DNA of 64,000 bases, taken from positions 4,979,073-5,043,072 of the forward strand of contig NC_040032.1 in NCBI RefSeq assembly GCF_000972845.2. Reading direction: 5' to 3'. The first letter of the stretch is position 1; each line of letters opens with the position of its first letter. The translations under genes and the position numbers were made by a program. The notes under the pieces are model-generated. The model was not told the origin of the DNA, made no database searches, and saw only the letters and a program-made list of their open reading frames with translations. This document shows, piece by piece, positions 12,555 through 43,559 of this stretch. The DNA is from Larimichthys crocea. Its lineage: Eukaryota > Chordata > Actinopteri > Sciaenidae.

Positions 12555-12649
12555 TCACTTGTCAAACAGGAAGTAGTCAGCCATGGAAAGATTGATGTTA
12601 CAGTACACAGCTGTGTTACACACAAACTGCTCAATCTCCCTGTCATGCA
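12555..12649 (-). CDS. candidate last coding exon (exon 7) of an unknown secreted protein
   Basis: On the minus strand a T-rich tract ends in tattgtag, followed by 95 open bases to a TGA stop. The exon completes one codon (Leu98 in the joined frame) and encodes residues 99-128. These include HDREIEQFVCNTAVYC with the cysteine pair C108 and C114 (C-x5-C), a sequon at N117 (N-L-S) and the end SMADYFLFDK. The amphipathic start and two spaced cysteines look protein-like rather than random. Its phase fits the exon at 14,232-14,265. I do not recognise the family. The C-x5-C spacing superficially recalls calcitonin/amylin loops, but the flanking residues do not match. Evidence is splice signals, phase and open frame only. 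Confidence 0.45.
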
Positions 12650-14231
12650 CTACAATACAGCAAAATACACAAACGACGAGCCAAGAAAAACTTATGTGAC
12701 GCTTAGGCCATACACAACATGAAGAAAAGTTAATCCTATGCTACAGTTACGTAACACCTTTCACAACAACTCAAACAGCCTCTCAAACCTTAAATTTAAG
12801 ACAATTGAATTGCAATATGAAAAAGCCACCAGGAGTGAAAAACATAGGATATAAATCAAGCATTGCAAATTTTCTATGTAAACAATTAGTTTGACAACAA
12901 TTATTTCAGGACTGGTGTGAAAGATTGCATTCAATACTGAACTAAAATTCAGATTCATCATCTGTACTGGGCATTTACAAACACCTGGCACTTGCATACA
13001 AAGACTGAAAAATATTGTACCGAGAGGATTGTACGTTAGATGAAAAAAAAAAATCAATTTATATCTATTACAAGCAAGGCACTTGATCTCTCTTTGTTGA
13101 AAGGATACAAAAAGCCCTACTGTATGTATTATCGTACAAAGACGCACAATGAAAACAATTAGTCTACCCTTGACACACAGTATGCTGTTGCAAAACCATG
13201 ACACCAACAGAGTATACAAAACACAAAAATTGCTGATCTATGGTATATTTTGGAGGAGGGTGCAGGGGAAGAGCCGGTGCTTCTGGATGACTAAAGATCC
13301 AGAGTGACATCAGATTCTGCTCTGGTCTGGATGGAACATTGGGGTTAAAAAATTGGATTTATTTCATTTTCACTTTTCATGCCTTCTCCATCAGCGAGCC
13401 ATGTATGTGCAAACACATGGCCAAAAACTTGATGCATGCCGAAAAGTCACAAAAATGAGTGAATATTCTCTTGCCTTCTGTGTGTACACCCCATTATTGA
13501 TCTACAACAACTACTGAACATTGGGAAATTCTAATACCGAACTGTTTTAAACAAAAGTGTTGAAAAAGGTACCAAAGTTTCGGTATACCGTGCAGCACTA
13601 ACAAAAGAAAAAACAGCCCTTGAGGCCCAAGCCAAACAAACATTACTTTATCATTTCTGACAGTGGATTGAAGGTGGTTGACAACTGAATAATTTCTCAC
13701 CTGATAGATATATTTTTCAACTTATGGAGGGGTTGTCACTTGAAATGAATGATTTCAGATGCTTCCACTTTTTGTCTGTTGGGTTGGGGGAGAAGGGCAG
13801 GACATGGTGGAGCTGTTTTTCACACTAACTATTTTCTCTCAGATGGTGTCAACGCAGCTGAATAAATAAACTGATGTCTGCCAGTCCCACAACTGGCTGG
13901 TAGATTATACCTGGCAAGAACTGACAAATGAAATGATTTCAAAATCAAAATCTAAAATACTCTGACAACAGTAGAGCAATAATGTGACGCAGTCAAGATT
14001 CAGAATCATATCATCATCATCATGGGTCTTCTTCATAAAAGGGCTGCATGGTTTATTTTATGGTAGACATTTAGACTTGAATTACTTCCCAGCAGTATAT
14101 CCAGCAATCAGAAAACAGAAGTGTATTCCAGAATAACAGCAAACAGCAGAAAAAAAAAGATTTTGTCATGAAGCACAACATGGCATATTTTGAAAAATGC
14201 TGTTTGGTTTGAACACAGTAAGTGTACTCAC
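12650..14231 (-). other. candidate intron 6
   Basis: Sequence between the candidate exons 6 and 7. It contains a decayed hAT end at 13,494-13,600 and short A-runs. The 152-codon minus frame at 12,761-13,219 is rich in F, L, I and C codons from AT-rich DNA, has no splice fit and is treated as chance. Confidence 0.35.
13494..13600 (-). mobile_element. hAT terminus fragment
   Basis: Read on the minus strand it starts tagtgctgcacggtatacc followed by gaaactttggtacc. This is close to the common fish hAT terminus CAGGGCTGCACGGTATACCG. Only one end is present. The other side fades near 13,494, so this is a truncated copy. Confidence 0.5.
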
Positions 14232-14265
14232 ATTGATCGATGTTCCCGTCTGCTTTCCCCTTCTC
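14232..14265 (-). CDS. candidate coding exon 6 of the unknown secreted protein
   Basis: A 34-base minus-strand exon with very good signals: acceptor tgtgctctctgtttgcag and donor AAT|gtgagt. It encodes EKGKADGNIDQ (residues 87-97) and leaves one base, T, to be completed by TG of the last exon to give Leu98. It begins in phase 0, as required by the exon at 14,900-14,943. The charged, glycine- and aspartate-containing peptide slightly resembles an EF-hand loop but is too short to claim one. The exon is tiny, so splice strength and phase are the only evidence. Confidence 0.5.
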
Positions 14266-14899
14266 CTGCAAACAGAGAGCACACACAAAAGTGGTTATTA
14301 CAGGCTTGGAGGAGTGAGACAAAAACAGCCCTTTGTGCAGCTTTTCATGCACCATTCGTTACTTTGCTTCTTCCTCTTTTCTGGGTTCAGAGAAAGACAA
14401 TGACAGAAAACAAAAAGGTGAACAGACGGAAAGAGAATGACAAAGAAAGGAAGACAAAAGAGGGTGAGAGAGAATATATGGTGAATGACAGCAGAGAAAC
14501 GAGAGACTTGTAAAAGGTGAATCCCAGAATCAATTAATTCCCCTTAATTGGAAATACACTTGCCAACAGGCTGCAAAATGGCAAGTGTCACCATATTGTA
14601 CTGGAATGTTTATCAGGATGTCAAACCACTGATACCACAAAAATAAACTGTGATTCATTTGTCTGCCGTACGTATGAGTATGACATTGACATGTAGTTTC
14701 AAATTAATCAGCATAAATGTCATTTTCAATCATAGTTTAGGTTTAAAGTGTTAGCATGTACTGTATGGTCTGTTATTAATTAGTTGTAATTCCATTATCG
14801 TTTAGAGATGCAGCAATATGGAATTTCCGGGCTGAAAATGATACTGCAAAGCTGAGGGATGATAAAGACAGGCAATAGTTACAAGGGACATACACGTAC
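14266..14899 (-). other. candidate intron 5
   Basis: Sequence between the candidate exons 5 and 6. The plus-strand frames at 14,190-14,513 and 14,197-14,403 are purine-rich chance frames. No repeat or RNA is recognised. Confidence 0.35.
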
Positions 14900-14943
14900 A
14901 AGTGTTGAGGATATCAGAAGAGAAAAGTTGTCCTGCAGCATCA
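14900..14943 (-). CDS. candidate coding exon 5 of the unknown secreted protein
   Basis: A 44-base minus-strand exon. The acceptor is excellent (tctgcccccgtcactgctcag) and the donor CTT|gtacgt is moderate. The first two bases, TG, complete Leu72, then MLQDNFSLLISSTL follows (residues 73-86), ending in phase 0. N77-F-S79 is an N-glycosylation sequon, consistent with a secretory-pathway product. The other two frames hit a stop inside the exon or at the next junction, so only the frame used here is compatible with exons 4 and 6. The stretch is hydrophobic and probably helical. Confidence 0.45.
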
Positions 14944-15142
14944 CTGAGCAGTGACGGGGGCAGATAAGAAAATGTGAGACAATATTCTTGGCCCATCTGA
15001 ATACTAAGGTATTTCACAAAATCGTTATGTGGCAGTCAACAGGAGTGTGGATAAAAAAGTCAAAAAGTGAACAGAGCTTTAAAAAGAAATGCAGGTAATA
15101 AAAGCTGTATGTTTTGCAGGGCTCAAAATGAAAATTTTTACA

Positions 15143-16171
15143 TTTTAAAATAGGGATGTAAACAGTTAATCGTCAAAAAGAATTTAATCGATTAAAAGTA
15201 ATTAATCAGGTTAACTGAATCTAGGGCCATTTCAGTGAAATGTCATGGTGTCGCCAGTTGAGGGCCACACCGAAAGTACCTGAATGTAACGCGGCGACAG
15301 ACCCGGAGTGGAATATGGAGCATTTCAAACTAAGTAATGATGACACTCAGTGTAAACTCTGCGGTGCTACGTTTAAGTTCAGCAGCTCTACGAGTTCACT
15401 AAGATACCACCTTCAAAACCTGCAGGCGTGTTGACGCGCTAGCAATTAGCACTAGCCACTAAGAATTAAATACATGCTGATGCTAACATGCTAATGCTAA
15501 TTACTAGCCCATCATCGCTATCTGCTCCTGTGTGTAAATAAACATGCTCAGCACACTCGTCACTCTCAACATTTCTGCGGGAAATTGTTTAATAGAGGCC
15601 CTCTAATTTTACGGTCACCTTCCTCAGGGATGATTGAAGCTGTGTTCAGTACTACTGTACATGTTACTGTAAATTTCCAGAACTAGTAATCTTACTGTGA
15701 CCTTTCTCAGAACAAGGGAGATTATAATTAGTGCTGCTAATGTTTCAAGTTTTTCATCTAAGTACTTTACCAGATAATTATATGTAGGCTTAATATAATA
15801 TTAATATTGTGTAGGCTAAGCCCATATTGTATAGCTTTAAAAAATATTTTATGTTGCTTAATGTTTCACATGCAACAGGTGAGCCAGTGCACAATTATTT
15901 TTTTTATGTATTTCAATTTTCTGTGCAGAATTTATTTTGGTTAAATGCCATATCTGTACCATATCCCAACTGGTACAATAAAACATTAGTTGAGGAATAT
16001 AACATGCATTTTTTATTCAGTATATAAGCAATATTTTGCTTTATGTTAAAGACACCGTGAGAAATGGATGTTCTCAGGAAAAAAGACGCTTATCAGTTAA
16101 TCGTTAAATCGATAAGGTCAATCAACTAACGATTAATGAATTAATCGATAATTTGCATCCCTATTTTAAAA
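15143..16171. mobile_element. non-autonomous hAT element with perfect 8-bp target duplication
   Basis: The terminal repeats are tagggatgtaaacagttaat on the left (from 15,151) and its near complement, ending attt-gcatccc-ta, on the right (to 16,163). Identical 8-bp duplications ttttaaaa flank it at 15,143-15,150 and 16,164-16,171. Inside, AT-rich subterminal blocks carry repeated ttaatcg motifs, typical transposase-binding repeats. The 1,013-bp body keeps only the BED-finger end of a transposase (15,240-15,434), so this is an internal deletion of an autonomous hAT. The perfect duplication suggests a fairly recent insertion. It lies in candidate intron 4. Confidence 0.85.
15240..15434 (+). pseudogene. 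hAT transposase N-terminal BED zinc-finger remnant
   Basis: A 64-codon frame. The second half (residues about 27-64) is a BED-type zinc finger: MEHFKLSNDDTQCKLCG, then a serine-rich linker, then SLRYHLQNLQAC. The C-x2-C pair and the leucine/histidine helix (H...C) fit the fold used by hAT transposases for DNA binding. The catalytic RNase H-like domain and hAT dimerisation region are absent, because the frame stops at once. It is a relic unless spliced to something else, for which I see no evidence. Confidence 0.65.
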
Positions 16172-16289
16172 TTAACAGGTTGGCAACCAGGTAGCTGCTC
16201 AATTAAAGCAACCAAAAACATTCTTTGTAGCCTGGGTTTTAGGTTTTTTAGGGTTCAAAGGTACCCTCAAATTCTGCTGTGAAGGCTCC

Positions 16290-16708
16290 TAACATGGGAC
16301 TCACACAGGGGACATAAGCGCCGCGGAACAGCTGCGCTGCGGTTTAGCTTCGTCCTCTGTCCGGCGTCAACTCACACCGGGCGCGTGTTGGCAGCATAAC
16401 GGCAGGTGACTTTGCTTCTCCGACGTGGAAGAGATTAGAAAAAGCATCTGTTATGTCATAAATTATTGTGTGTTGTTCCACTTCAAAAATTAGTCGCTCA
16501 TCATCCATGTTGAGACCCTTTGATCGATTGATTGCTCACCTGGTGCTATGAAATTTACGAGGTTTAGCTGCGGCTCGCGTCAAAAATAGAAATGCTACAG
16601 AATGCTTGCGCTGTGGTGCGGAGAGACGCCGCGGCGTGCCCTGTGTGAGTGCTCTCATTGACTAGACTGGTTACGTGGCGCGTACGCCCCCATTGTGAGT
16701 GGGCCTTA
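16290..16708. mobile_element. Harbinger-like non-autonomous element
   Basis: Related inverted ends: on the left, catgggactcacacagggg followed by gccgcgg. On the right, read in reverse, ggcccactcacaatgggggc, with an inner actcacacagggcac and gccgcggcg block. The GC-rich TIRs of the 'gggcccactcacac' type and a 3-bp TWA-like flank (taa at 16,290-16,292 and tta at 16,706-16,708) fit PIF/Harbinger MITEs of fish. No transposase is present. CpG content is much higher than in neighbouring DNA. The family call is from memory and the end positions may be off by a few bases. Confidence 0.55.
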
Positions 16709-16905
16709 ATTGAACCCTGGTGCACAATAAACAACTGGACCTAGACTGCTTGAAAGAGTTGGTCTCAGTCAGGCCAATTGTTATGATAGCAGCTTTTACC
16801 ACAATTTCATTTAGTTAAATTACTAATGAACCTGAAAATGAAATTAACATACAAAATGAAAAAGAATTTAGCCAAATTTCATAAGATTTGGAATCCCTTT
16901 CTTAC

Positions 16906-16938
16906 ATTCTTGGAGAACTGTGATTTTGGTGAAGTGAT
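16906..16938 (-). CDS. candidate coding exon 4 of the unknown secreted protein
   Basis: A 33-base minus-strand exon with strong signals on both sides: acceptor cgctctccctgtttacag and donor AAT|gtaaga. The first two bases, AT, join the G left by exon 3 to give Asp61. Then HFTKITVLQE follows (residues 62-71), leaving one base, T, that makes Leu72 with exon 5. A longer minus frame runs through this segment from 17,120, but its upstream part is the polypyrimidine tract and intron. Confidence 0.5.
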
Positions 16939-17108
16939 CTGTAAACAGGGAGAGCGAATAGCAAATGAGCACCCCAAAATAAATCCGTATTAGTAATATT
17001 TAAATATTTCTGTTTTGATTTGAACTGGAACAAGACAACACTGAACCGGAACATGCACTTGCTACTGTGTACAAAAGCATCTGTTTTAGAGACAATTTGT
17101 GTGACTAA

Positions 17109-17240
17109 GGGTGCTTTCACACTTGTAGTTCAGTTCAGTTGGTGTGAAACCAGGGGGAAAATGCTGCGTTTTAGTTAGTCTGGATCATATTCACAAATTG
17201 CCTTTTTCCAAACAAACAAAAAGGAGACAGCAATGGACAC
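17109..17240 (+). mobile_element. MITE-like terminus
   Basis: The stretch gtgctttcacacttgtagtt followed by cagttcagttggtgtgaaacc recalls a common fish MITE end ('GTGCTTTCACACCTGTAGTTCGGTTC'). No matching right end (gtgaaagcac) was found, so this is a one-ended fragment in candidate intron 3. Confidence 0.4.
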
Positions 17241-17339
17241 CACAGTTGTAGAGATTGTCACCCAAAAGGCCAGGAATTGGTTGCCAATTTCCAAAAAAAG
17301 AAAAAGGAAAAAAAAGGTTGCCAATGACAACCTGGCAAG

Positions 17340-20300
17340 CATAACTGTCAAGCCTTGTCTTGTATTATGAATTAATAATGAATGTGAGGGTAAAAGCTTT
17401 GAATGGCTGGACGAAATGGTTGGACCAAAAGTATTTTGATGTGCATTGTGTGCTTGTTAGCTACTGATCACCTGTGCTAGTTACAGCACCAGGAACATCG
17501 CGTTGCATACATTTATCTAAACCGGAGGTGCAATTTAACGTGCTGGCAAAACAAAGGATCGACAGGCCGTTTAAAAATAGAACAGAAGCGGGTCTTCCAA
17601 TGCAACGCTGCTTCTGAAGAAGCCAATATGTGGCAGAAATTGAAGTGTTCTGACATTTTGCATTGTTGTCCCTCAGTGTAGATGTCAGCGGTAATGAGGC
17701 TCAGTGATAAAACATGTGTGTGTCTGCAAGGCCCTCTTGGCTTCCCGGGAGACCGAGAGTCTCACGAAAAACGCAGCAGTTTTAGTGCCTACTGTCATTG
17801 CCTCCTTCTTCGTCTCTACATCTTTATCCCTCTCTCTTTCTACCATCTGTCCATCTTAATTGCAGACGTGCTTCCTCATGATGGCAGGATAAAATTGAGT
17901 GTGCTCATCAGCACCGCCTTCCATCATCTCAAGCGCCGCTGTTTGATCAATTGATTAGGGAATCAAACCAAGCATAGAGGTGAAAGAAAGGCTATGTGCC
18001 TCTTTCTAAAAATACAGTCCTCTCTTTACCATGACTCTCCAGGGTTCTTTTTGTCACTTTCCTTTATACATTTATGCATTCATTGTAGGATATTTTATAT
18101 GGTGTGAAATAATACTTTAGTAATAACTGGAGTCGTAAAGCAAAGTAGAATAACAGTTAATTGGGGGTAGTTTTTTCTCTTGCAATGCAACACTTCCACT
18201 TTCAGTGGGTGGAGAAATGTAAATAACTACCACCAGAATATCATTTGAGCAAATAGGCTAAACTCACTGAGTTTCAATTAGAGAAATCTGATGCTTTTCT
18301 CCACCATATTTCCTCTTGTGATAGAAGCCGATTACAGAGTTGTATTTTTACATAAAACCTGACTGCCCAGTGCAATTAGGATTATGTGATAAGATTATGA
18401 GACCAGTAGGGATGCTGAGAGCTATGCACAACAGGGTAAGGCAGGAGATCCTCAAGCCTGAGGCTTTAAATTTCCACACATAACTGGATGTCTCAGGTAA
18501 TATTGTTATTTTCTAGGCAGTTTAGGCTACTCGGAAATGCCACCAATTGGCATTAAATATAAAAAGTATTTCAACATATCCGGATGGTTTAACTACTTCC
18601 GTCTTCAAGCAGCAAGTCATATGCATTGAGAGGTTAGGGGTAGCATGTGACAGATGATGCAAGACAGCATATTCCTGCACATAACCCATGGTCACCTAGC
18701 ACATGAATACAAGGTAGGGTGTGCTAAAATCATAATTTATTTACATAATTTACATAAGTTTATTTTACTGCCTTTTAACAAGTTTAAGTCAAGGGTAGGT
18801 TTGTATCTGCTAATCATGCAGCAGTAGTTACTGTGGTTATATAGATGTGTACCTCTGCTATAGCTTCACATACTGAAGATGCAATCATAGCACTGTGAGT
18901 TAAACTGAAGTAAAAACATCCTCCATGTGTCATGGCTGTTTCAAGTTTTATTGGTTCTTATGGTAGCAATATAGTTGAAGTGTTCAAACTCAACAAGATT
19001 GTTATACCCTCTCAAAAAACTAGTACTACAAACAAATCTCTGAAAGCTACATGCCTCCATCTCACCCAGACTAAACAAGGATCTGACATTGCTGCCACAC
19101 GGACTGACATTTTGTAGGAATGCAATTTTAACAGCAAGGTAATTCAAGCCAAGCTGTGTCTTTTATGAAGGCTGCTTGAATACACGTCTTTTCCTCACAC
19201 ACTTACATGTGACACTATGAAGGCACTTTTCATTCAAGTACTGATATGTTTATATGTGCCAACTTTATTTTCTCATTAACAAAAGTCTCTGGTAGAATTA
19301 ACTGTCTGCATACCAACAACACTGCAGCTTCAATATGTCGATTAAGCAGCGCTTTAGTCATTTTAAGATATGTGGAGCATATTGATACCCTGACCTTTTT
19401 AATATACTGCCTAATAGGACAGAGTAGTATCCCAGATCAGGAGCAGGGATAGAAAGATGAATCTATTCGTATAGGTTTTCGCAAGAATTTATCTTTCTAC
19501 ATTCAATAGTTAGTCCTTGTTTCATGTTTATTGCTTAGAAATAAGGGACCTGTCTTACCTCAGAGTAGGCCAACTAGCAAAAATAAGCCAAATAATGAAC
19601 TAAATGAAATAAGTGAATTAAAGAAAAATCCTAAAACAGTGAATCCTAAAACAGAACTAAAGTTGAACAAATTCCAGCCTTTTCCCCCTACATCATTAGC
19701 TTGAGTAGATTCATATTTCTGGAGTCATTTTCATTTACTCAGATTTGCCCCCCACATCTGAAGACAAAGTCATAAGCATCCATGTCTGATAAAGGCAGGA
19801 AATTCTTTTTATAAAACCTGATGCTGTATTTGAGTCCACAATAATGTAATCAATCATTCAATCAGAATTTGATTACACAATTGAAATACTAAATTATTAG
19901 AATAATTGACGTATTTCATAATTCTTGATGGAACTATTTACAAAATGAAAGTAACAATCTCAGGATGTTACTACATTAACATGTTTTATATATGTTTGTA
20001 TTTTTTTTATTGAAATTATTTTATCATTTATTAATTTATACCGGTAATAATTATCAGTAGCTGCAAGACAAGAAAATTTAATTTAACAAAAAAGTGCTTG
20101 AAAGGTCTACCACTTAATCACTTCTTGTGCCTATCAGGTTTTCTAAAATTAACACCATGTCACATAACTCTTATCAAACCTTTTTGGCAATTGTGTATTC
20201 ATTAGAGTGGTGTCTGAGATTGTTGGTTTCCTCATTTGCTCTCCAGAGCCAGAAGAGTCCTGAGACAAAAACTGTAGATAATAATGTTTTGTGAATTAGG

Positions 20301-23300
20301 CATGGCGTACAGCAGAAGAATTGGGATATGGTGTTTTAATGTTAATACATTCACTAAGATTGGCGATTAATACAGTTTTATTCTTAATTACAATTTTAGT
20401 TTCCAATGAAAACAAGATACATTAGAGAGCGAGAGACTATTCACATCTACATCAACGACAGTGGTCATGATTTCCAAAAACTATGCCTGTTTTTGATTGA
20501 CGATTTGACAAATCAGTTGTTGTTGACTTTTTGAGAACCTCAGAGAAGACGACAAGACCAGATTCTACCAAGAGTGACCACTTTCTGGCATAGAGAGACC
20601 TTTTAGTTGAAAAAAAAAAAACATGAATACTGACACTGTGGTGGTTGTGTCATTGTGTGCTTTCTTACTGTTTGGTTATGACATCACCTTCATCTGTGAC
20701 CAACTCATCTTTACGTTTCCCTCAAACCGGTGGTCCATTTTCACCCTTTTTCCCGAATAATACAGTATGTATACTCATGTCTTTTCTCTCTGAATTCTCC
20801 TCTTACGTTTCCGTAGGGAAAAAAAATAGATCAAATAAAGCCACTATTAAGATTGTCAACTATTTTTACATTAAAGTTCTATAGCTTTACTACCTGGAAA
20901 TAACATATTCTTAATGGTTGCTTTATGACATACAAGTTGGATTCTAGATGTCAAAATTTTTACACCTTGCACCTGTGCATTGCCCTGTTTTATGCACCTG
21001 ATTTATGGATACAGAACTTTTTTGAAAAGAAAAAAAAAGAAAAAAAAGAAAAAAAAAAGCCTCAAGATCATACGCAAAGCACCTCACAACATACTGCGTC
21101 ACCAGCTACCAATACAAATTACTAAATTTTGAAAATATTATTCAGTATCTACCTTCAATATGCACTTTTAAATTTTTAATTTTTAATTTTAAATCTTTTT
21201 TAAATTAGCAGATGGTTGGGCTGAGCACAAACAGTATCCCATTATAATTATAGTAGAGTATTATTATTTCATGTAATAGTAATCATTCCACATGTTCTGT
21301 CTGCCTGAAAGGATTTCTTGAGCTTTGACTTGCAAATTCTCAGGACACAGCCTGAAAAATGGTGAACTAACCCTCTGGGATGTAATGAAATAAAAACTAA
21401 AGCTTTAGGCATACAAGTCATAATCAAATGTAAATGTAGTTGAGGGCCCTACGACTGAAAATGAAAACACATGAGAATAACGTGCCCACATGTAGAGGTG
21501 GCTATTTTCAATCTTTCAATTTCATTGTTCCTGCAGTTATTCCTTATTCATCTGATGCATAACCCCATTACTCTATAGCACAATATCCTCTTTCTCTGTA
21601 GTTAGTGCAAAGTCATTTAAAGACTCCACTCTTTTCACTCCTCATGAAGGCTACTCCCAAACCACATGACGACCTAACTGAAATAGGCAGTAGATAAAGA
21701 CCCTACATGCTTATCAGTGTTGGCCGTGACTATGCTGCAATAATTTTCACTACCAACCCAAGAATTCAGGACTAACTGCAGACACAGTACATCATCCCAG
21801 CTACACCATCACTGAGTTAAATATTAACATGCATACATTAGGGAAATACTAAAAGGTGTGCATATAGTATGAAAGCACATCCTGATACAGGGATGTACTG
21901 ATTTCTTGTACACTTTAGATCAAAACACTTCACTCCATCTGTTATTGCATTGAGTTATTATGCTTCTCTTATCTTGATCTTTATCCATTATCGTATTACT
22001 GTTGAACATTACGGCCCTGTGTAGACAGGATTGACAGAGTCTGACCAATGTGTTTTCATGGCATCTTCCCATCGGCAGCATGTAAAAGGCCCTTTTCAGC
22101 AGGAACATTATGACTTATCATACCAGGAAAGGCACAGGTATAAATAATGTCATTTCATTTAGGAGTTCCCTGCTAATACACATGCTTGACTTACTGGACT
22201 ACTTAAATGGGATGAAGCCATCGTTAATGTTATTAGTTGTAACAGCTTTTCCTGCTATGACAAGAGCAAATGCAAACATTTATTTGGGTGTACTGGTGCA
22301 AGTGACTCTGGGTTCTGATACCTAGATCTCTCAATTAATTTTATAAAATCTGTTCTCCCTCCTCTCTTCTTCTCATTAGCAAGAAGCAGTGTACAAAAAC
22401 ATTCAGCTAGCAGCTTCTAATTTTAGCCTGCGCTGACAAATATCGCAGGCAGCAGGTCATATCAGCTGTCATTAATTAACATTAATTCCATGAGTAACTT
22501 GATGAAAGACCAGCATTTAACTGTGGTTGGGTTGGTGTGCTCTGCAGTCGGTGTCTGTACTCTGCCAAAGAATGTTTTGCGAGGCAAGTATCACCCTGTA
22601 ACACTGCTGTGAGTGTTTTTGTGGTTCACAGCAGAGGCCTTCATGGGTCCACCCAACTACCGTACATCCACACATAACTGCTGGAGGCTGTGCAGGATGT
22701 AAAAAGCCAAACTGATAAATTGGTCAAGATCTGTTTGCTAGTAAAACAATCTTCATGTTCACGTCATAATTTCAAGAGGGCATTCCACCACTTAGACTTT
22801 TCATACAGTACCATATCAATACTTGAAGGTTATCTCAGCTTTATAGGACCTCCAGTATTGGAAAAAAAGTTGTTTGTGAAAACTAAAGCACACTAAAGTC
22901 AGTAGGCCACTGTTGTTTTGTTGTGCCAGATACATATATTATCAACATTTTATATCCGTTGCTTGTTATTTATTGTTCTGTGTATAATGAGCATCTTTAG
23001 CACAATGAATTGAATTACGACGGATTGAGTCCTACCTTATTTCATGCATCATTGAAGCACAATGCATTCCTGTCCTTTGTTTGATCTTAAATATTCATAC
23101 AGGCATCTCAGTTGCTCTATAGGTATCCAACAGGGTCCCCAGGAAGTTGAAAAATAGTCAAAAGCTTTCATTAATTGCTTTATTGCTCATTCTTTTTTTC
23201 TGTAACGCCCGTAAGAGACTCCATTGTTCCTCTGTTTACATGTTTTGTATTGTTTGGGGAGGATTTTAGTCATAGAAAAAAAAAGAAAATCTGGCACCAC

Positions 23301-23948
23301 TTATTCATTCCCATAGGCTTTGAGAATGCATCCTGCATAATCATTTGAATTCACAGAGCCGTATGATTTCACCGCAGGATCGACATTAAATTCTTGTGCC
23401 AATTGACAGCTTTTATAAGTTCCAATTCTGGCCTGATAGACGGAGGGGGAATGCCTGTAACCCTTTTTTTGTTTCAAGGGATTTCAAAGAACCGAATCAC
23501 CAGGGCAAAATTACATTCCACAGCTGGCTGCCAACTTGGCAATGCCCAAAGTGAGTCAGGCTTAGAACAGACCAGGGGGTGTACATGCTTCATTTCACAA
23601 AGAATTAGGACGACTGCAGGGATGTGTGTTATGTGTCTGTCTGTGCGTCTTTCTGACAACCTGTTAGTGCTTTATGTGCTTTCTGTTCTGCTGATGCAAA
23701 GAACAATTGTTAAAGGGATGCATCAAAATCATTATTCTGGCAAAGGCCCGTTTGTTCACAGGAAGTTGTTTTCCCCTCTGTTTAGCCTGTTAATCTCTTG
23801 CCATCATAAATGTAACCAGGCAAGCTCATTCAAAAACATGTTTAAGCAATTATCTCAAAACTGTAAATGGATAAACAAATGAAAGCTCAGATTAAAAACA
23901 AGTCAGTGTTCAGTGTTAGTTGTTAGTTGTAACCATTATTAAAAGTAA
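17340..23948 (-). other. candidate intron 3, left part
   Basis: Long non-coding stretch. It includes an A-rich low-complexity tract at 21,023-21,059 and AT-rich blocks near 20,000-20,050 and 21,165-21,195. Three segments are complex, repeat-free and could be conserved non-coding elements: about 17,650-17,960, 22,380-22,520 (reverse-palindromic ttaattaa motifs) and 23,290-23,660. Two micro-exon look-alikes were considered and rejected. No RNA gene is recognised. Confidence 0.4.
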
Positions 23949-24198
23949 ACTCGAGACTAGAGTTGCCAAATCTATCTATCTATCAATATGATAGGCTGTT
24001 TCCGCACGCTGGGTCCGCCCGTCTGTTAGCTGATTGGCTGTTCGTGTGTTTCTGCCAGCAAGAACGAACTCCATGAAGACAGCTCTGCTCCAATAGAAAT
24101 TTCGCGTCAAAACAAACAACACGCCAAAGAACCGAGATACTTTGTCTGGTATAGTATCGTGGTTACTCATTTTGGTATCGTGACAACTCTACTCAAGA
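23949..24198. mobile_element. short hAT-type MITE with 8-bp target duplication
   Basis: A 234-bp body (23,957-24,190) starts ctagagttgccaa and ends tttggtatcgtgacaactct, so the outer ends are inverted (agagttg and caactct). The flanks are 8-bp near-identical duplications, actcgaga and actcaaga (7 of 8). A short (TCTA)n run lies just inside the left end. It resembles a fish MITE family with 'gttaccacgatacc' motifs. No coding content. Confidence 0.7.
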
Positions 24199-26059
24199 CC
24201 AAATTGCACAGAGGAGAGTTAGATGTACAATGTTACAGCACACACATCTCCGTGTGCGTTCATCCACCATTACATTTTAATTTAGTTAGTACCCGCCTTG
24301 TTCAGCAACATAACAAAGAAGGGGGGACCAACAAAGTTTTTGAGTACTAAACAGCTACCAATTACTTTTCACACAGAGTAGAAACAATACAATTTCTCCA
24401 AGAGTTGCATGTACAAAAATGGCTGTTCCACACCACACATAGTCAGGAAATAACCTGTGACTATAAACATTTTCCATTATCAGTTTTAAGTGACTTTTGG
24501 ACTGTTACCTCATGGGAAGTCTGAACGATGTTAGAGAGACCTCTAGTTGTAAACTAATGTAGCCTGACACATAGCAAAGTAGTACTATAGCAGGGAGATT
24601 CTCAGACATGAAGAACTTTATTTGCCTTCTACTGTAAGCACTGATGAGCATTTCATCTCCATCTATATCCACAGGTTCTTTAAATAGTCACAACTGATGA
24701 AGAGGAACTATAGCCACTTTAAACAGTGTGTGGGGGAAAAAGAGCAAGGGACAGAGTGACAGTGAGCAGAGCAGAGGAAAAGTTTAGCAGTAAGGTGTCT
24801 ACCTGGCAATAAGTTACAGCTTGTCTGTTAATAAAAGCTGCAGCTTTACAGGACCAAGAAAAATCTTTCTGGCCTTTAAGTGCAGTGTCTTTTAGGAGTC
24901 TGTCAATCTCATGTTGCTTTGGGTTGAGTCTGTTGACCAATCAGAGGCATCAACCAGTGAGAGGGAGAGTAGTGCAGGTCTTCATGGAATGACAGCGGGG
25001 GAAAAAATGTTGCACAACGCATTGTGCAATGGAACAGCGATGAAGATTCACTGTGAAAATGAAGTCATGTCGGTAATAAGCTTTACCACATGGTATTGTG
25101 GTCATGCAGTTAGCATAGCCCTAAGCTACAACTATGAACTGGCACTCCCTATAGACACCACTCTGCCAATATTACAACACAGGTTCCCACACACACGGCT
25201 AGCTGCTTTTCCAGCGGAGACTCTAAGATGTTCATGATTCATGTATTAACTCATTTAAGTAAATGAATAAACCTGAATGTTTTTAATATGTCTAAAATCT
25301 GTTGGCTGACATTTAAGTGAAAGATATTGGTCTGTCTTAATATTTGTTATTTTTATCTTTACTTTTATCTGGTATTGGTCTACTGAGATATTCAACTTTT
25401 ACTTTCATTACAGGGTTCATTGTCTTAACCATAACCTTACAAAGCAGATTCCCAAAAGTAAATAGAACACAAACTGAATAAGACAAGTTTCAATAAGTAT
25501 TTTCATATGGTGTATGACTAGAAATCTACAAATTTATTTTGATAACTAGCCCTCTCTATTACCTATTACCTGCAATGTTTGGCAGTTTATAAAGCTTTGT
25601 TCCCAAAGGTATAGGCTACAACAAACACTGTCAACGTCACTTTTGTCATTTTCACTTGTCACTAAATCCATTGCAAGGGGAAACGACTGACCTCCGCAGC
25701 TAGCATGACCAAACAATGGCCTTGTGATTTTCACAGAGTAATTGTTAACCTCTCATGTCCTCACTGTCTGCCCTTTTTCCGTCCTGTCAGTTTCATATTT
25801 TCTTCAAAAGTAAGCTCAGAGACAGAGAGGAAGTGACAGATAAAGTGAAGATTTCTGCATCACACTGCAAGGTGACTCGGCAACTGTGTGCTCCTATTCT
25901 CTTAACTGCCTCACGGGTAAAACAAAAAGGTACAGCTCAAATGTTATATGACAGAGCAACCAACGGCTTCAGGGTTACATTCAAATCTCTAAGTTTGTTT
26001 CAGAGTGGGTCACAACCAAGCAGCAACCTCTGTGGCTGTGAATAGAAGAAGTGCCACAA
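24199..26059 (-). other. candidate intron 3, middle part
   Basis: Nothing firmly identified. A minus frame at 24,719-24,940 ends at a usable donor (CAG|gtagac at about 24,799-24,804) but has no convincing acceptor or domain. The frames at 25,546-25,734 and 25,755-26,045 also lack splice context. Confidence 0.4.
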
Positions 26060-26300
26060 ATTGCAGTTCCCCAAACAGCCACTTGAGGCTGGTGAACCAA
26101 TCTCTATAGACCCCCATTTAAAATGGCCAACTTAACATATTAACACACTGTTAACATGAAAGGAACACGTTAACAGTGTGGTACAAATATAGTGTTGGTC
26201 TCTAGATCCAAATTTACTGTTCATGAATACTGCTTCAGTTTCACAACAATCCTTCAGAATCCTATGGACATCATGGCTACAACATCCATGTTTTATTCAG
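26060..26300 (+). repeat. dispersed teleost repeat fragment
   Basis: Phrases such as agccacttgaggctggtgaa, tagacccccatttaaaatgg and gttggtctctag match a repeat very common in fish introns, whose class I do not know. An internal hairpin, cactgttaac at 26,146-26,155 with gttaacagtg at 26,169-26,178, lies inside it. The copy is diverged and partial. Recognition is from memory. Confidence 0.5.
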
Positions 26301-26334
26301 TCTATGGCCAAAACTTGCAAAGACCTCTAATCTG

Positions 26335-26640
26335 CATACAACACTTTCATATGATTTAATGATTTTGGAGAACCTTGCCTCTCTTAAATCAAAACTTAAG
26401 ACACACTTTTTTAGATTAGCATTTTATTACTAGTTACACATGTTCGTTCATGTTGCTTCTTGTGTCAGTGAGTACCACTCTGTCTGCTGCGTCTTATGCA
26501 TTTCTGGAAGGTTTTTTTTATTTTTTATTTTAAACACTACAGCACTTTTATTCTTTAACTGTATTTTAATTGTATTTTACTTTAAATGTATTTATTTATC
26601 TATGTATGTATATAAACAAACTTGATTTGATTTTGCACAA
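26335..26640 (+). mobile_element. LINE (L2/Rex-like) 3' end remnant
   Basis: About 26,358-26,425 reads like the decayed C-terminal codons of a LINE reverse transcriptase ('FKSKLKTHLFR-AF' pattern: tcaaaacttaagacacac, then tttttagattagcatttt). A T-rich 3' tail follows, ending in aaacttgatttgatttt near 26,620-26,635, the short-repeat tail typical of L2-clade elements. Confidence 0.5.
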
Positions 26641-27418
26641 GTGCTACTGACTGAACCAAAATAAAAAATGGTTTATCTGAAACTGATTATTGTGTCACTG
26701 TTTGTTTCAGCTTTTAAATTTAGATTTTGCATTTAAAGAAATGTGTAGCTCTCTAACACAATCCTTTACGTATTTAATATCCAATCACAGCATTTTAAAC
26801 CCAGGTTTACACGGATTTTCACCTGGATTTTAACATCACAGCAGCCATTTTGATATGAAATAGGAGGGTAAACACAGGTGCTCCCAATTATACTAATTAC
26901 AAGGTTTCCCTCCGTTCAGGTCAAACAGAGCCAGGGTGCTGCTGTGGTGCATGTTGGTTCACTGGAAAGTCTCTGCTGCACTAAATGGAACTGAACCTTG
27001 ATTAGTATCATTGGAAACACCTGTGTTGACCCTGGTTCATGTAAAAATGGCTTCTGTGAAAAAAGATCTATTCTCTAACACTACAAAAAGATGAATTAAC
27101 TTGCAACTTTAAAAGGACAATATCTTCAACAAGCTAGGTTTTTATTTTCATTCTTGAATATTCGAAAAGGTAGAGGTTGAAATATAATATAATAATAAAC
27201 AATTTACATTTATGAGCATATTGTGCAGTCATGTTACAAATACATTTTAGCTTACATTTTCCAAAATTCCCCCCCAAAAAATTTGTTGACATCGTAGTTT
27301 TACCAAGTTTTGTAATTTCAGTAATATAAAAAATTCAGCAAGTTAAAATTACTGTTACGTTTACAAGGTGGGAAAGCCGACTTACTTCATGGCAGATGTA
27401 GAGTAATTAACAACTTAC
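26641..27418 (-). other. candidate intron 3, right part
   Basis: No exon or clear repeat boundary. The block at 26,790-27,060 has repeat-like phrases but I could not assign it to a family. It ends at the donor of candidate exon 3. Confidence 0.35.
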
Positions 27419-27449
27419 CCGCTATCCAGTCTAAGAAAAACGATTTTTC
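27419..27449 (-). CDS. candidate coding exon 3 of the unknown secreted protein
   Basis: A 31-base minus-strand exon with acceptor tttaatcgttcccag and an ideal donor, CGG|gtaagt. It starts in phase 0 and encodes EKSFFLDWIA (residues 51-60), leaving one G that makes Asp61 with exon 4. An alternative acceptor 19 bases further in (cgtttttcttag) would put a stop in frame, so the outer acceptor is preferred. A second donor lies 36 bases downstream, but the frame stops just before it. This is the weakest internal exon on acceptor quality. The aromatic and acidic peptide looks protein-like. Confidence 0.4.
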
Positions 27450-27879
27450 CTGGGAACGATTAAATCCAACTCAAATATCTTCTAACCAGAATAAAAATGT
27501 CTGAAATAAGAACTTAAGCTAGTTAAATACTTAATAAGTTCTGGACACATACGTTGCCCAACAAACGACGTATTTCAAAGCATTAACAGACTACACGGCC
27601 AGTGGCGTTTAGGAGCACTGACTCACAGGTCCAGGGTCAAAACAAACCAAATGTATCCTTCCACCTTCTTTCGATTCGATCAGCCAATCACAATACTACC
27701 TCTCCACCTGATCACTGCGTTTGATTGACAGCTAAAACCATCCAGTAATAACTGCAGCTTTGAAAACACCTCCTGATTGTAGCCAATTGTAGATTATCTT
27801 GTTCTAGCTGGTCTGTATTTATTGACAGATATTTAAAATACATTTAGAGCATTATAGACATTTTAATTAGTCAGCAAAA

Positions 27880-28050
27880 ACATTAACACTTTGTGAGTGG
27901 TCTGGCGCCTTCCTTTGGACATATGTATTTACTTGTATTTGTTTGTTATGTATCTGTTATGTATTGTTTTATGGCTTTGTTGTGTAAAGCACTTTGGATA
28001 TTGTAAAGGGTTATACAAATAAACTTGATTTCATTTGATTTGATATGTGG
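27880..28050 (+). mobile_element. L2-type LINE or SINE 3' tail
   Basis: The stretch gttgtgtaaagcactttgga, then aagggttatacaaataaactt and a run of tgatttcatttgatttgata is the hallmark 3' tail of fish L2-clade LINEs and the SINEs that share their ends ('gtaaagcactttg...ctatacaaataaa'). Only the tail is left. Confidence 0.65.
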
Positions 28051-28461
28051 TACAGCATTCACTTAAATCAAACATGCATACAAAGGGTGAGGGGACAGGT
28101 CCTGTGAATTTTAGCCTGATCATCCATATTATGACTCATGTACTGTATTTGAAAAATTACAAATTAACAGCGATCCTATGGACTTGCAGCAGTTCTTTAT
28201 GGTTTGGAATTTTAAAATGAGCATACCAATAGGTTCAAATGCACGACTTCTCCTATGCCACAAAAACAGCACAGATACTGTAGGAGAGGTCAAGACAGAA
28301 GTGCACTATTTCACAGGTGTTAAACTGTGCTAAACCTGGCAACAAATGTGTTTTGTCACAGTTTTTATTCACTTAATGCAATCCTGATATGATTTGTGGT
28401 TTATATGATTGATTTATCTAACCATAAGCACTTTTTTAGCCTGCATGTGTTGGAAGCTGAA

Positions 28462-28463
<2 letters not shown>

Positions 28464-28523
<60 letters not shown>
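28464..28523. repeat. (GT)30 microsatellite, CA repeat on the gene's sense strand
   Basis: A perfect dinucleotide run of about 60 bases. It begins about 20 bases downstream of the exon 2 donor on the minus strand, inside candidate intron 2. Open frames that cross it (poly-VC or poly-TH) are artefacts. Confidence 0.95.
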
Positions 28524-28526
<3 letters not shown>

Positions 28527-28543
28527 TTGCACAGGATATTTAC

Positions 28544-28693
28544 CATGGAGTGTTGTTCCTGCGAGGAGGTATATGACATGCTGGCTGTATCCATGCTGCC
28601 TCGACTGCCGCTCTTGTGTCCTTCAGCCAGCCAGCACCCTGAGGTTCCCAGCAGAGCGGCCAAAGCCACAGCCCAAACACCCAGGCTGCCCAT
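28544..28693 (-). CDS. signal-peptide coding exon (exon 2) of an unknown secreted protein
   Basis: On the minus strand a T-rich tract and ttctccactcag acceptor (exon start at 28,703) precede ten 5'UTR bases, then ATG and 50 open codons to a donor, ATG|gtaaat. The protein start is a textbook signal peptide: MGSLGVWAVALAALLGTSGC with a hydrophobic core at residues 6-16 and probable cleavage near 19-25. A hydrophilic, Ser/Gln-rich segment follows (HKSGSRGSMDTASMSYTSSQ, then EQHSM). The exon ends in phase 0, which fits candidate exon 3. Only this first ATG gives a signal peptide. Read past the donor, the frame runs into the CA microsatellite, supporting the splice site. I do not recognise the family. 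Secretion or membrane insertion is inferred from the signal peptide. Confidence 0.65.
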
Positions 28694-29702
28694 GACTGTC
28701 TACCTGAGTGGAGAAGTAAAAAATAAATAAATAAAATAAAACATTTTATGCAGCTCCATAGTCTTCATGTTGATCTGGGTTAAAGGGTAATGGAACAGTT
28801 TACTGGTCTATATTGTATCTAGCACTATAAAACTGAGATTTAATCTCCTTCATATGTTGTTGTCAATATGATTAAATGAACTATGTCAAAGTTGTGTTGT
28901 TGTGTTTTAGTATGTAATTTTAACTCTAAATCTTCACACCTTATTTGTGATTTTAATCTCCTGTGATTACATTTGAATAGCAATGCATTTTAATGACTTG
29001 AAAAAAAAAATCTTGTGATGTATTCAGTCTCCACAGAGAACATAAACAGATAAGCTCAATTCACATTGAACTCATAAACTCATTAGGACTATATGTTATT
29101 GTAACCACTGTAATGCACAGGATTTGTTGCAAAAAAGCTCAGTGGGACCATGAGACAGAGGAGAGCAAATCATTCAAATGCTATACACTCACATAAACTC
29201 ATCATGCTCACACAAGCATGTGAATACGCATAATATGGTTGTGTAAACATCAAAGCCCACACTGATGGGACTAATTATCTGTATTACGGAAGGACACAGA
29301 AAATCTTTTGATGTCAACAAAGAGACGACTCTCTGAAGTCGCAAATGATGGAGTATGACACGGGGGCTTAAAATACGAAGTCAGTGCATCAGTTTCACTG
29401 CTGTGACACGACCACATATACACAAACCTTCAGGAAAAAATTACACAAAATATCCCAAATGTGTGTGTAATACTGGACAATAAAAAGCTTGTGAAGTAGT
29501 AACCCCTAGAAAAAATGCCATCAAATAATGGCTAGTTCCTTTGGTAAATTATATAAATAAAAATGATTAGGAGGATTTTTTTTTATTTAAACATTAAAAT
29601 GTGTTTTAATTAGTGCTGATTTGAAATACCCAAGCTAGAGTGGAGGAATCAGACAGTTATTAAATTCAGCTGGATTAAGAACATTAAAATATGTTTTATT
29701 CA

Positions 29703-29766: not shown

Positions 29767-29809
29767 CCACATCTTTGCCTATTTTTAGATTAACTGGGAG
29801 GCAACAGAG

Positions 29810-36700: not shown

Positions 36701-39700
36701 TGGGTTTGACTCTAAATGAACAACAGTGCACATGTTCATAATAATGAAGGATCCTGTCACTCAGAATGACAGCATGGCTATTTCTTAAACAATGGAGGTC
36801 TATGGCAGAGAGAAATAAGCTATATCAGGCTTTGGATTCACAGACAATACTCATTATAGGATTTATTCACTGCTAGTTTTTGTCTTTTCATGAACAGTAC
36901 TGAACAGAGCATAAGCCAGATGGACACACACAAAAAATAGGAAAGACAAAGCAGCACAAAAAATGTGAGCAACAAGAAGGACACCATTAAAGCAATTAAA
37001 ACATGTGACAGAAAAACATATGGCAGCAGTGTTAGAAAAGTTAATGTATTCGTCTTGCAGAGAAACAAGTGCACATGTGCCTTTTCAGATTGTGGTAAAA
37101 TGTACCCTTAGAGTGAAAAATAATATGTCAGCTTCCCAGAAAAGACACAGAGACCTCGGAGAGAACATAATGTAGGAAGTGGTGCTTTAGCAAAACCAGA
37201 GATTCTTATCAGCTTGGCTTCTTCTGCATTACCTCAGAATTAATTATTGCCTGACACTCTCTTTTTGCCATTTTCCGTCTCTATATAAGAGACAGAGCTT
37301 CAGGCTGTTAGGTAATAAGACCCATCTCGATGCTGGAGAGAGAAAGGATAAGAGGATTGTTCTTTCTGTGTCATATTCTCTTCCTTTCTCGCTTTACCTT
37401 TTCTTACTAAACACAGATATTGACTTGTGGCTGTTTTCTCTGACAAGTTTCCGTGACCAGATCAGCAGCTCTTGGGTGTTAAAGCCCACATCCTGCTTGT
37501 CAGGTATGGCTGAAAGATACACAAACAACTTGACCTGGTAAATCCAGAAATCCCCCGCAGGCTTTATGACATGGATTCAAGAGCAAAATAGATATCAGGA
37601 GAATCTGCAGTGACACAACAGGGTGGTCTGTCTGGCTAAGAGGACTGTGTTTGCTAATTATAGAGCAGAGGCAAAGTGTTGCAAACGACATGAAAGAGGT
37701 CTGCTTGGTAACGAACAGAAAAACACCTTCTGAAGCATAAATGGCTTTTCAGAGGCACTTTGAGGAGAAAATGTGGTTTTGTATACATAATCATCAGTGA
37801 CTGAAGAACCACTAGAACCTGTAAATAGTAGTGTGCTGGTTGAAGCCTCATTCATAGTTGTCAGAAATCAATGCATGTGTATTATCACATCCTGAAATCA
37901 TATCAATCCATTGTTTCCTTCGTCATTTGTCCTAAATGCGTACTGGATGCTGGCTACAAGAAAACTATAAATGTAAATGCAAATTGACGTCCAAAAGCTA
38001 ACAAATGATCTTTTACAGATTCAAAGTTAATACATGTTTTACTTCAAGTATTCAAGCTTTCAGTAGCTAAATATTATTAAGATATTCGGATCACACAGTT
38101 GTTTTTGTCGTTGTGTTTGATTTACAGTAATGACAGGCCCTCACGCTCAGCCCCAGTGGTTGCCATTTTTGTCCTACTACAGCTTCAAAGCTTCACATCA
38201 ATTCAGATGTGTTTTCTTTGTTAAAGACTTGACAAGTTAAAGACACTGGCAGCCAAAATAATCTCAATTCAAAGGTCTACTTACAAGCATTTTAAACTTC
38301 CAACCGCTTTTTATACACAAGCTGATCAGAATGTTTAATTAAAAATAGAATTTAGTTTATCCTAAAGTCACTGCCTCTCAGTGCTATTCCATCCTCTCCT
38401 TGTGCTTTAGCAACAATCCATTTTCAGTACAGTTGATTCAGTGATGACTGGTGCTTAACCACAGACTTTCTCCACTTGAGCTGGATTACAATTACAATGA
38501 ATACAGCGAAGTAGCATTTAAAGACAACTTTGAATCACACCGCCCTTTTAAATGTGATGTGACAAAACACCTCTATGCAAAAGAAACCACCAGTTGGCAG
38601 TTTTAAGCAGCTGAGTGAAGAATGACTGCATAAAAGGGACAGACAGATGGCTGACTAAATTCACTGCAGAAAACAGATATGCCAGGCGACCTTTCTGTAA
38701 CCTCTCAACACATTTCTCTCTCTCTGCTGACTCTTTCGTCAGTTTCCTCCATTCAAGCAGAGGAGGCAGCAAGCACTATTTGCTCAGAGCTGCAGTGCTG
38801 ATGCTCTGAGCTCAGCCACTGTGTTCATATGGGATGCAGCGGTAAAGGTCATTTCTAGAAGTTCAACATTAGTGATCGGAATTTCAAGTGAACCGTGTTG
38901 CCCACATTTTGTGGCCGTGCACTCTACAGGGAGTACAGAGGACCTATCAGGTGAGCCAACGGGAACAGTGATGTGTCTCTGAATTAAAAAGAAGTATAGC
39001 AAATCTAATGGTGCAAGTTAGTAGCTGTGCTTAGTTTCTGTGCTGTTCACATTAGGTGCTTCCCATTGTCAAAGCCTTGTGTTAATCATGTTAGATTTCT
39101 CTGGGTATAAGTTTGTGTGAGTGTCAGTGTGCTCTCTCTAAACCCATGAGAAAGAGTTTCATCAGTTCAATCTAAAACTAATCTTGTCAGCCCCATTGGA
39201 ATGTGAGTGTATGGCAATGAAGTCAATCCATAAGAGTGTGACCCACCATCTGTAATGCATTTTTACCTTTGTCTTGGAGTATGGCTCATTATGTGTTTGG
39301 GAAATTTGCAAAGCCAAACAAATCAAAGTCACCAGGCGTAAAAACAAAAAAAAAAAGAATGGAAGTGGGTTTGGTTTACTCAAGGGGATAGCTTTGTTGT
39401 GTGGAAATAAATCCTGCTCCTGATTAGACAAGCTCTGTATGGGCTTTCAGGCACTGTGAGTTCAAGGATTTAAATGGTTCACGAGTGGGGTATCATAATT
39501 GATATGAAAAATTTAATTTATTCTACTTTATCTAGCATTATACAGAATTGTCATCCAGGGCTCTCTATGTGTCCATTGGTTAGAGCCTGCAGCGCCTACC
39601 TTCAATTCATTAAAAAGGTGCGGGTCATATACTCTGTTTATAGTAAAAAGAGAACATAAACAAACAACTATTTGCACGTGTATACTCCACCTGAAACTCC

Positions 39701-40014
39701 AAATATCTGCCAGAGTAATGATCATTTATGTGATCCCTGCTCTATACTTGTTCGCATTAAAGATTCTTAGTAACAAGCACTTTTTAGTTTGACATCTGGC
39801 GCTTTTGTGCAAAACACAAGCAGATTCCTCTAAAACTGGCACAAAACACTATTTTGCCAGCCACTACTTGCTACAAAGTGCTTGCACAGAAACAGTAGTA
39901 TAGGAACCATCAAAATCCTATTCTGCCCTGCAGCCTATTTCCTCTCTAATAGACCTAAATCATCACACTGTAAAACACATCTTTAATCTTTTATCCACCT
40001 GCTGGACCTTATTC

Positions 40015-40038
40015 TTTTTTTTTTTTTTTTTTTTTTTT
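40015..40038. repeat. poly-T run of 24 (poly-A on the minus strand)
   Basis: A perfect homopolymer. It could be a retroposed poly-A tail on the minus strand, but no element body is recognisable next to it. Confidence 0.9.
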
Positions 40039-40289
40039 GGAAACTTTAGAAAATCTTTCAAAATCCGAAACAACTTTAAAATAGTATTTTTCATTTGAAC
40101 CAGCACTAGAGGAGAAGTGCAGCAAGAGAGGAATAACATGCAGGATATCTCTGATGGTTGCTCTTGTTTTGTATTATAGAAGGAAAACCGACAGTGAATC
40201 TTTTTCTGCATCTATCTCCAGTGCTCAGGCTTCGCTCTTTTTTAGTGTTTAGCATCTGAGAGCAGCAGGGAAGTCAAGTGGGTAGAGAG

Positions 40290-40410
40290 ACTGTGCTTTT
40301 TACCAGAACAACCCGTTTTCAGCCTCTTGTATCAGCAAGCACTCACTCCACTGAAATGTCCTGGAGCAAGAAGCTGAACTCCTGTCTGCTGTTCTATCGC
40401 TGACTCTGAC
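40290..40410 (+). repeat. possible dispersed teleost repeat
   Basis: The stretch cactcactccactgaaatgt then cctggagcaagaagctgaac and gctgactctgacctctggc resembles a fish repeat ('tccactgaagtgtccttgagcaagacactgaa...ctgaccctgcgctctgacc'). Diverged and without clear ends. Confidence 0.4.
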
Positions 40411-42114
40411 CTCTGGCTTTTCAGAAACCGAGCAAAGATGTCTTTACTGTGGTCAATAAAGTATCACATTTATCATATTATTAAATTACTTTCAAACCAA
40501 GGCTGGGTGTATGCTTACTTTATATGTGTATGTGTTATTTTAAGCACATTTTGTTTAGTTAAACTACATCTCATCCATGACCAAGCAACAATACTGCAAG
40601 ACACTCGAACAAAAAACTACTAGAAACGAATACTAATCATCTTTTGTCAACTTAACTACTCCAAAACAGCAGTATTGACACTGTATAACATTTTACCGCA
40701 TAGATAAAGCTGACTACAGCTTACATTCTGTGTGTTGCCACTCAAAAAGTCAATTACATGCTTATGTTGATATGTGTAAATCCAGTCTGGAGACATGGTT
40801 AAACAGACTCCTACACATGCAAGACCTGCAGAAGCACGTGAGAACGGTTCCTCAGCCTGGTTACACAACATAAGATTAGACCTTTATTACCATCCTTGAA
40901 ATTTGCTTTATCTAACTAATATGCATGACACACCGCACACATGCATTAACCCACATGCGCTGCTTCAAGCTGGTTCTGGCTTTTGCAGGGTTTAAGCGCT
41001 TAGTAGGGAGAGAGCACTCCTGACGCTTTATTCAGCTCTCATGACTGGGATGTTACAGTGAATTTTTTTTTTTGTTTTTTTTATGTGTGTGTGTACGCCA
41101 GTGTGCTATATGCTAGTGTGTCTTCAGTGTCAATCTGTAAGTGTGTGAGTCATCCCACTATTAGGCTGTCTCTGAAGCACAACAAGCAGCTATAATCTGC
41201 TGGACACCGCGCTGTAATGGCTCTCTGTGAGACAGCTAATAAGTTACACAGCAGATTGCAAACTGCAATAAGCTCGACTGAGCCACTATTCTGGGCTACA
41301 TCATTATTTCTCAACCCTTTGACTGTGACCCGAGGGTGGGCTGCAGAACTGCTCTGACAGGGTTCAGGACATGATGTGGCTCCTGCAGGAGGCGTTTAGA
41401 AAAGCCTGGAAAAGTGATTTCATGTGTGATTTCAGAGCCTCCATGAGTCTATATTCTATTTTGGTACTATGTTAATATAATGTTTAACCGTAGTTAAATT
41501 GTAGTAGAGTAAACTCAGTGTTGATTAACTGTGGCTGTTCTCTTGCCCTTTTAAATGCTATTATTTTCTTTTGCAGCTTTACTGAGTCGGCTATGAAAAA
41601 CACAATACATCCAACTGTTGAATTCAAAGCAAAAGAACACAAAATTTCACTTTTACAGCCAGAAATCTTGTCACATTTGGTGTCTGAATGATAGGGCTGA
41701 TGTCTAAAGGTTGTATGTTACTGTAAATTACGAGTTCCGACTGGAGCCCGCCGAGCAAAAAGATCCAACTGAGAACTGCTGCCATTAATATTCTCATCCA
41801 GGGGCAAGGGCAAGATATTGATCCAGGTCTTTGCATGTGTGCCAGCTGTATGTATATGTGCGAGACTACGTGAGTTGAGAGTTGGACGGGCTGTTGGCCC
41901 GCATAAAAGCTGAAGGGCTAGCATTTACAAGCAGTTTTTCACAGATTGCACATTGATAGATTGCCATAATTCTTTTTGCTGGATGTTGGTTCCATATCAG
42001 GGTTCCAGGTAAGAGAGGGAATCCAACAAACCCAGAAAGAGGCTGGAAGGGGGGAAAGCAGCAGGGAGCGGAGTAAAGGGGGGAAGCAAAGAGAGGCTGG
42101 AGCGTTTTCAGCAC

Positions 42115-42175
42115 CATGGAGAGCTCCGGCGCAATATACGCTATATAACGGCAGCGTGCGCGCCGGCCAATCCTC
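42115..42175 (-). promoter_or_regulatory. possible alternative promoter with TATA and CCAAT boxes
   Basis: On the minus strand an inverted CCAAT box (attgg, 42,167-42,171) is followed about 20 bases on by a TATA-like gttatatagc (42,141-42,150), within a CpG-rich patch at about 42,060-42,260. A start near 42,115 would lie within candidate intron 1. No strong donor follows on this strand. The boxes are closer together than usual, so this is tentative. Confidence 0.25.
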
Positions 42176-42819
42176 ATTTCCCACTCCGCTGGCCGTCACG
42201 GAGGCTTTGCTGCCGCTGTGCCAGCTCTCTGGTGACACTGATAGGATTTTCCCATGAGAGAGCGCTGAAGCAGCTCATTTAACACAATCAGACAAGAAAA
42301 TCTCGCCTTGTTTAGAACCACCCTTCCCTCTCTCCTCCAAAATTTTTTTTAAGAGTTCTGTGCATGCTGGTGGGTAGATGAAGGGTGTATGTGCTTGATG
42401 AGACACCGGTACCAAATAAATTGGCTGACGGCAGGAGGACCTGGGGAGGAGAAGAAGGGGGTGGTGGCGGTGGGACCGGGAATCCACGCCAGAGAGAGCC
42501 CAGCGAGGGATGTGCGTGTCTCACTATGTTATCATTTCTGTCCCTCTGCTGCTTGAGCAAACCTGGCGCATCCGGACAGAGGAGTCCTACTGAAGCCATT
42601 TATCAAACACTGCCCTGTTGTTTTCGTGCAGGTAGAGCCGCTGCACGGTTATATGAGGCTACCAAAAGCTGGCATCTGCTCATATTGAATGATTAATAAC
42701 AACCCGTGTTGCGCCAGACAATAGGCGACATAGCAGGCAGTGTAGTTAAACACTGTCACAGATTGTCATTGACATCGCCCTGCGCTATAAGGCTGCACCT
42801 CACATATATCCTTTTCTGG

Positions 42820-42821
<2 letters not shown>

Positions 42822-42876
<55 letters not shown>

Positions 42877-42889
42877 TCCCCCTCTCTCT
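42822..42889. repeat. (CT)n microsatellite
   Basis: About 30 CT units with minor interruptions at the right end. On the minus strand it is a GA repeat. Confidence 0.95.
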
Positions 42890-43122
42890 ATTATTGATGC
42901 ATTTCTCCTCAGCTACTCACAAACTAAAATTAAAGCACTGCCACTGCCATCCTCTCCACAGTTTCCCCATTCACTCACACTCCCAAATGCAAACACGACA
43001 GGACGGATAAAGCGGCGTCATGCACCCAAAACAACCAAACTTGTGAAGAAAACAATACATACGTTTTTCAAGCAACCTTTGAGCTCTTTATTCCGCATTA
43101 GTAAATACAGCTTTAACCTTAC

Positions 43123-43217
43123 CTGTGAGAGAACAGAAAGAAAGGAAATTCGAGCCACAGATTTCCTCGCAGCGACGCGTCCAAACTGCGCTCTTTTAGT
43201 TCCACTCCTCTCTCTCG

Positions 43218-43250
<33 letters not shown>

Positions 43251-43520: not shown

Positions 43521-43559
43521 GCGACACCTGTGTGTGCATGTCTGCATGTGTTTGTGGGT

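Follow-up and report, generated by a model that had tools for sequence, protein, structure and literature searches.

Do six short open stretches on the minus strand of the Larimichthys crocea genome encode a secreted protein of unknown family, or do they belong to a known gene? The question concerns a window of 64,000 nucleotides (the whole stretch of DNA analysed; NC_040032.1, positions 4,979,073 to 5,043,072; positions below are those of the window). An initial annotation joined the stretches 28693-28544, 27449-27419, 16938-16906, 14943-14900, 14265-14232 and 12649-12555, called claimed exons 1 to 6 here, into one product of 128 residues. If that reading were true, it would describe a new secreted vertebrate protein. 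As a description of the letters it was accurate: the coordinates and AG/GT borders are as given, the join is open over 128 residues, the phases at the junctions agree, and residues N77, N117, C108 and C114 are present in the joined product.

Comparison of this product with 5.77 billion proteins gave 12 proteins at E<=10, from 19 candidates. Eleven are short unnamed fragments in which the exon-1 peptide is followed by Val-Asn or Val-Ser (11/11). Every valine codon reads GTN, which means that these relatives keep the GT at the window's ATG/gtaaat position; the eleven fragments look like genomic DNA translated through the donor. In the twelfth match, P0007 (Champsocephalus esox, 147 aa), the exon-1 peptide is directly followed by EKGKADGNIDQ, the peptide of claimed exon 5, and then by SLSDPDGDPC and a Kazal domain (Pfam Kazal_2, E 4.9e-7). 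Nothing from claimed exons 2-4 lies between exon 1 and EKGKADGNIDQ, and the peptide of claimed exon 6 is absent after it. The 128-residue product had nothing significant in Pfam (best E 0.23) and no match up to E 10 among PDB sequences; Rfam at gathering cut-offs gave no match.

A second search was scored on the N-terminus of P0007, with the query X-padded to admit full-length proteins as candidates, and found 203 proteins from 299 candidates. Among the 120 of these 203 matches that were listed, 113 (hand count) carry the name follistatin-related protein 4 or follistatin-like 4; seven do not, being nameless (P0053, P0109), hypothetical (P0060, P0108, P0117), incompletely named (P0129) or FSTL5-like (P0128). 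FSTL4 of Nibea albiflora (P0020, 841 residues, with Kazal, EF-hand and Ig as its listed Pfam domains) tops the similarity to the window among the matches listed. The claimed-exon-1 peptide is identical to it at 47/50 residues (E 4e-44, small database), and EKGKADGNIDQ is identical in P0020, adjacent to the exon-1 peptide and with the Kazal region next. The window thus holds the N-terminal signal-peptide exon of FSTL4 and the micro-exon peptide that comes right after it, with a phase-1 exit.

The junction between these two exons was read in 121 FSTL4-type proteins (P0007 and the matches listed, P0013-P0132). The exon-1 peptide is matched at E<1e-3 by 64 of them, or 66 under slightly different settings, and by both counts the alignment reaches exon-1 residue 48-50 in 33. 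All 33, which include isoforms and records of one species and so are not 33 independent species, carry the micro-exon peptide or a variant within two residues after exon 1 (32 by pattern, P0045 by eye). EKGKADGNIDQ is exact in 14 of the 121, each time directly after the exon-1 peptide. The exon-1 end is unaligned in the other 88, through earlier divergence or another N-terminus, and these are silent on the junction; in P0054, which is among these 88, the expected place of the micro-exon peptide is taken by unrelated residues.

From these similarities we are nearly certain that what lies on the minus strand here is the 5′ portion of a teleost fstl4 gene (follistatin-related protein 4, SPIG1), with an exon at 28703-28544 spliced to a micro-exon at 14265-14232. 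The locus is an ordinary, already known gene. Judged by homology, the six stretches do not belong to one single gene and two of them are fstl4 exons, and a new 128-residue secreted protein is very probably absent here. Reading it as a novel protein is an artefact of how the exons were chosen, and the locus belongs to fstl4: the protein taken as unknown is the known FSTL4. Splicing of the 28.7-kb exon to somewhere else, which the initial annotation had named as counter-evidence, is seen at the protein level, where relatives join this exon directly to 14265-14232. What survives is a spliced minus-strand gene whose protein is secreted; its signal-peptide exon is real, and so is its 34-base micro-exon, in the stated phase. 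The single six-exon product does not survive, and its sequons and C-x5-C pair belong to exons 4 and 6, which lack support.

The first coding exon (28544..28703, minus strand) very probably starts at 28703 and not at the ATG. An acceptor AG lies at 28705-28704 (the window letters are ctccactcag, then GTAGACAGTC, then ATG), and relatives read R-E/A-T-L before Met (P0002, P0005, P0011, P0022), which fits an acceptor 10 bases upstream. The exon then has 10 bases of 5′ UTR (28703-28694), the ATG at 28693 and 50 codons that include the signal peptide, and its donor is gtaaat at 28543; both border positions fit relatives. By splice-matrix scoring, the acceptor reaches 5.02 bits, and the donor is weak at 1.15 bits, below the donors of claimed exons 2 and 3. 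A (GT)29 dinucleotide repeat occupies 28464-28522, about 20 bases into the intron. The second coding exon (14232..14265, minus strand, 34 bases) encodes EKGKADGNIDQ plus one base, a peptide present in relatives, and its acceptor, at 8.5 bits, is the highest among those scored. The intron between the two (14266..28543, minus strand) is 14278 bases long, and its flanking peptides are adjacent in relatives.

Claimed exons 2 (27419..27449), 3 (16906..16938) and 4 (14900..14943), all on the minus strand, lie inside this single 14.3-kb intron between real fstl4 exons. Claimed exon 6 (12555..12649, minus strand) was placed where relatives carry SLSDPDG and the Kazal domain. The peptides of these four have no match at E<=1 in the 132 retrieved proteins, isoform models included. 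A database search scored on product residues 51-128 gave zero candidates; it needs shared five-residue words and would miss distant relatives. The donor of claimed exon 4 is weak (-0.34 bits) and the acceptor of claimed exon 6 scores 0.11 bits. Claimed exons 2, 3, 4 and 6, which the initial annotation had counted as coding, are almost certainly open stretches by chance.

We also counted how many such chains the intron offers, scanning 28543-14266 on the minus strand from 60 bases inside each end and accepting any splice site no worse than the weakest one in claimed exons 2-4. Within these limits the intron yields 18 candidate exons, each 25-60 bases long. Ten of the 18 are open in phase 0, and the number of open, phase-consistent chains of three exons is 76. 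Control stretches of equal length on the minus strand gave 87 chains (44277-30000) and 3 chains (58777-44500), the plus strand of the same intron gave 0, and 20 first-order Markov sequences gave 0-34, non-zero in 15/20. None of the 20 simulations reaches 76, and neither do two of the three real-sequence controls; the third exceeds it, with 87 chains from a stretch never proposed to contain such exons. The figure of 76 tells how many chains are available and says nothing on whether any of them is true. Claimed exon 6 is likewise one of 17 possible terminal exons in 14231-10000 with an acceptor at least as good. The six-exon chain is not beyond what chance gives, and with 76 chains available in the intron the original caution that hand-picked exons make the fit look better than it is was well placed.

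These counts bear on the remaining readings. Claimed exons 2-4 might be lineage-specific alternative micro-exons of fstl4, giving a minor isoform with a longer linker between signal peptide and Kazal domain. They sum to 108 bases and jointly keep the frame, and the sites of exons 2 and 3 have scores comparable to those of real exon 1 (acceptors 4.66 and 5.98 versus 5.02; donors 7.14 and 1.85 versus 1.15). However, none occurs in the 132 retrieved proteins, named isoform models among them, comparable stretches are common, and singly only the 33-base exon keeps the frame; we consider this reading very improbable. That the micro-exons of 31 + 33 + 44 bases form a lineage-specific alternative insert between the FSTL4 signal peptide and Kazal domain in this fish is a little less probable again. 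Least credible of all, and extremely improbable, is that the six exons encode a genuine secreted protein of 128 residues from an unknown family: the join is open, and at each of its five junctions the phases agree and splice borders are present, but in relatives exon 5 comes straight after exon 1 and leads on to Kazal, the 132 retrieved proteins and the search on residues 51-128 gave no match to claimed exons 2-4 and 6, and comparable chains are plentiful.

To return to fstl4, tblastn of the 132 proteins against the window (E<=0.001) matched the exon at 28.5-28.8 kb with 53 queries; the remaining matches were a flank at 28.9 kb and the micro-exon, one query each. Kazal, EF-hand and Ig exons were not found in the window by this search, which means that they are either outside it or absent, and a relaxed search of the window with the Kazal part gave nothing convincing (best E ~0.7). 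The Kazal and later exons therefore presumably sit past the left window edge, more than 14.2 kb beyond the micro-exon. To look for an alternative first exon, the N-termini of nine other gene models (P0043, P0050, P0054, P0056, P0057, P0059, P0062, P0063, P0110) were compared with the window, and none matched convincingly (best E 0.025 over 10 residues).

The stretch 28968-28864, which lies 161-265 bases upstream of the first coding exon, resembles the translated upstream part of the genomic fragment P0005 (60% over 35 columns, E 3e-7). No clear donor was visible there by eye, and the stretch was left as conserved flanking sequence; by this resemblance it is a candidate conserved non-coding flank or unrecognised 5′ fstl4 feature. 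The donor at 43123, proposed at the outset as a strong one, scores 8.15 bits and lies in a CpG-richer segment (42300..43600, minus strand; GC 0.50, CpG o/e 0.63 versus 0.35 for the whole window), which is plausibly a promoter with a putative non-coding exon 1. At 61831-63383 there is a large nested inverted repeat with three arm pairs (61831-61930/63284-63383, 100 nt, 97%; 61936-62265/62819-63148, 330 nt, 95% complementary; 62261-62321/62750-62810, 61 nt, 90%), which looks like a foldback or DNA-transposon-like element. Nearby, 60751-61250 (GC 0.52, CpG o/e 1.18 versus 0.35) is a candidate local CpG-rich island or young repeat.

In the predicted fstl4 transcript, the signal-peptide exon 28703-28544 would join the micro-exon 14265-14232 across the 14.3-kb intron, and the micro-exon would enter the Kazal exon in phase 1, to the left of the window. 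Because exon 1 ends in phase 0, a transcript lacking the micro-exon would be out of frame, so the micro-exon should be constitutive for this start. The product would be secreted, with Kazal, EF-hand and Ig domains like its annotated relatives. Mammalian FSTL4 is described in a review (PMC10151479) as binding proBDNF and restraining BDNF maturation, and by analogy the fish product would most likely do the same.

The outcome is the removal of a false novel gene and the naming of the real one, fstl4. Any long intron readily supplies chains of very short exons for selection by eye; still, two of those picked here are real exons, and one of these has just 34 bases and is separated from its neighbours by more than 14 kb.

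Among known proteins, FSTL4 of Nibea albiflora (P0020, 841 aa) has the same exon-1 peptide (47/50) and EKGKADGNIDQ, adjacent as in the window, and differs by three exon-1 substitutions, in a comparison that covers the two window exons. The Kazal-like protein of Champsocephalus esox (P0007, 147 aa) shares the exon-1 peptide at 66% identity (tblastn), EKGKADGNIDQ and the Kazal domain; its record differs in being short and ending after that domain, and probably represents the same gene in a truncated model.
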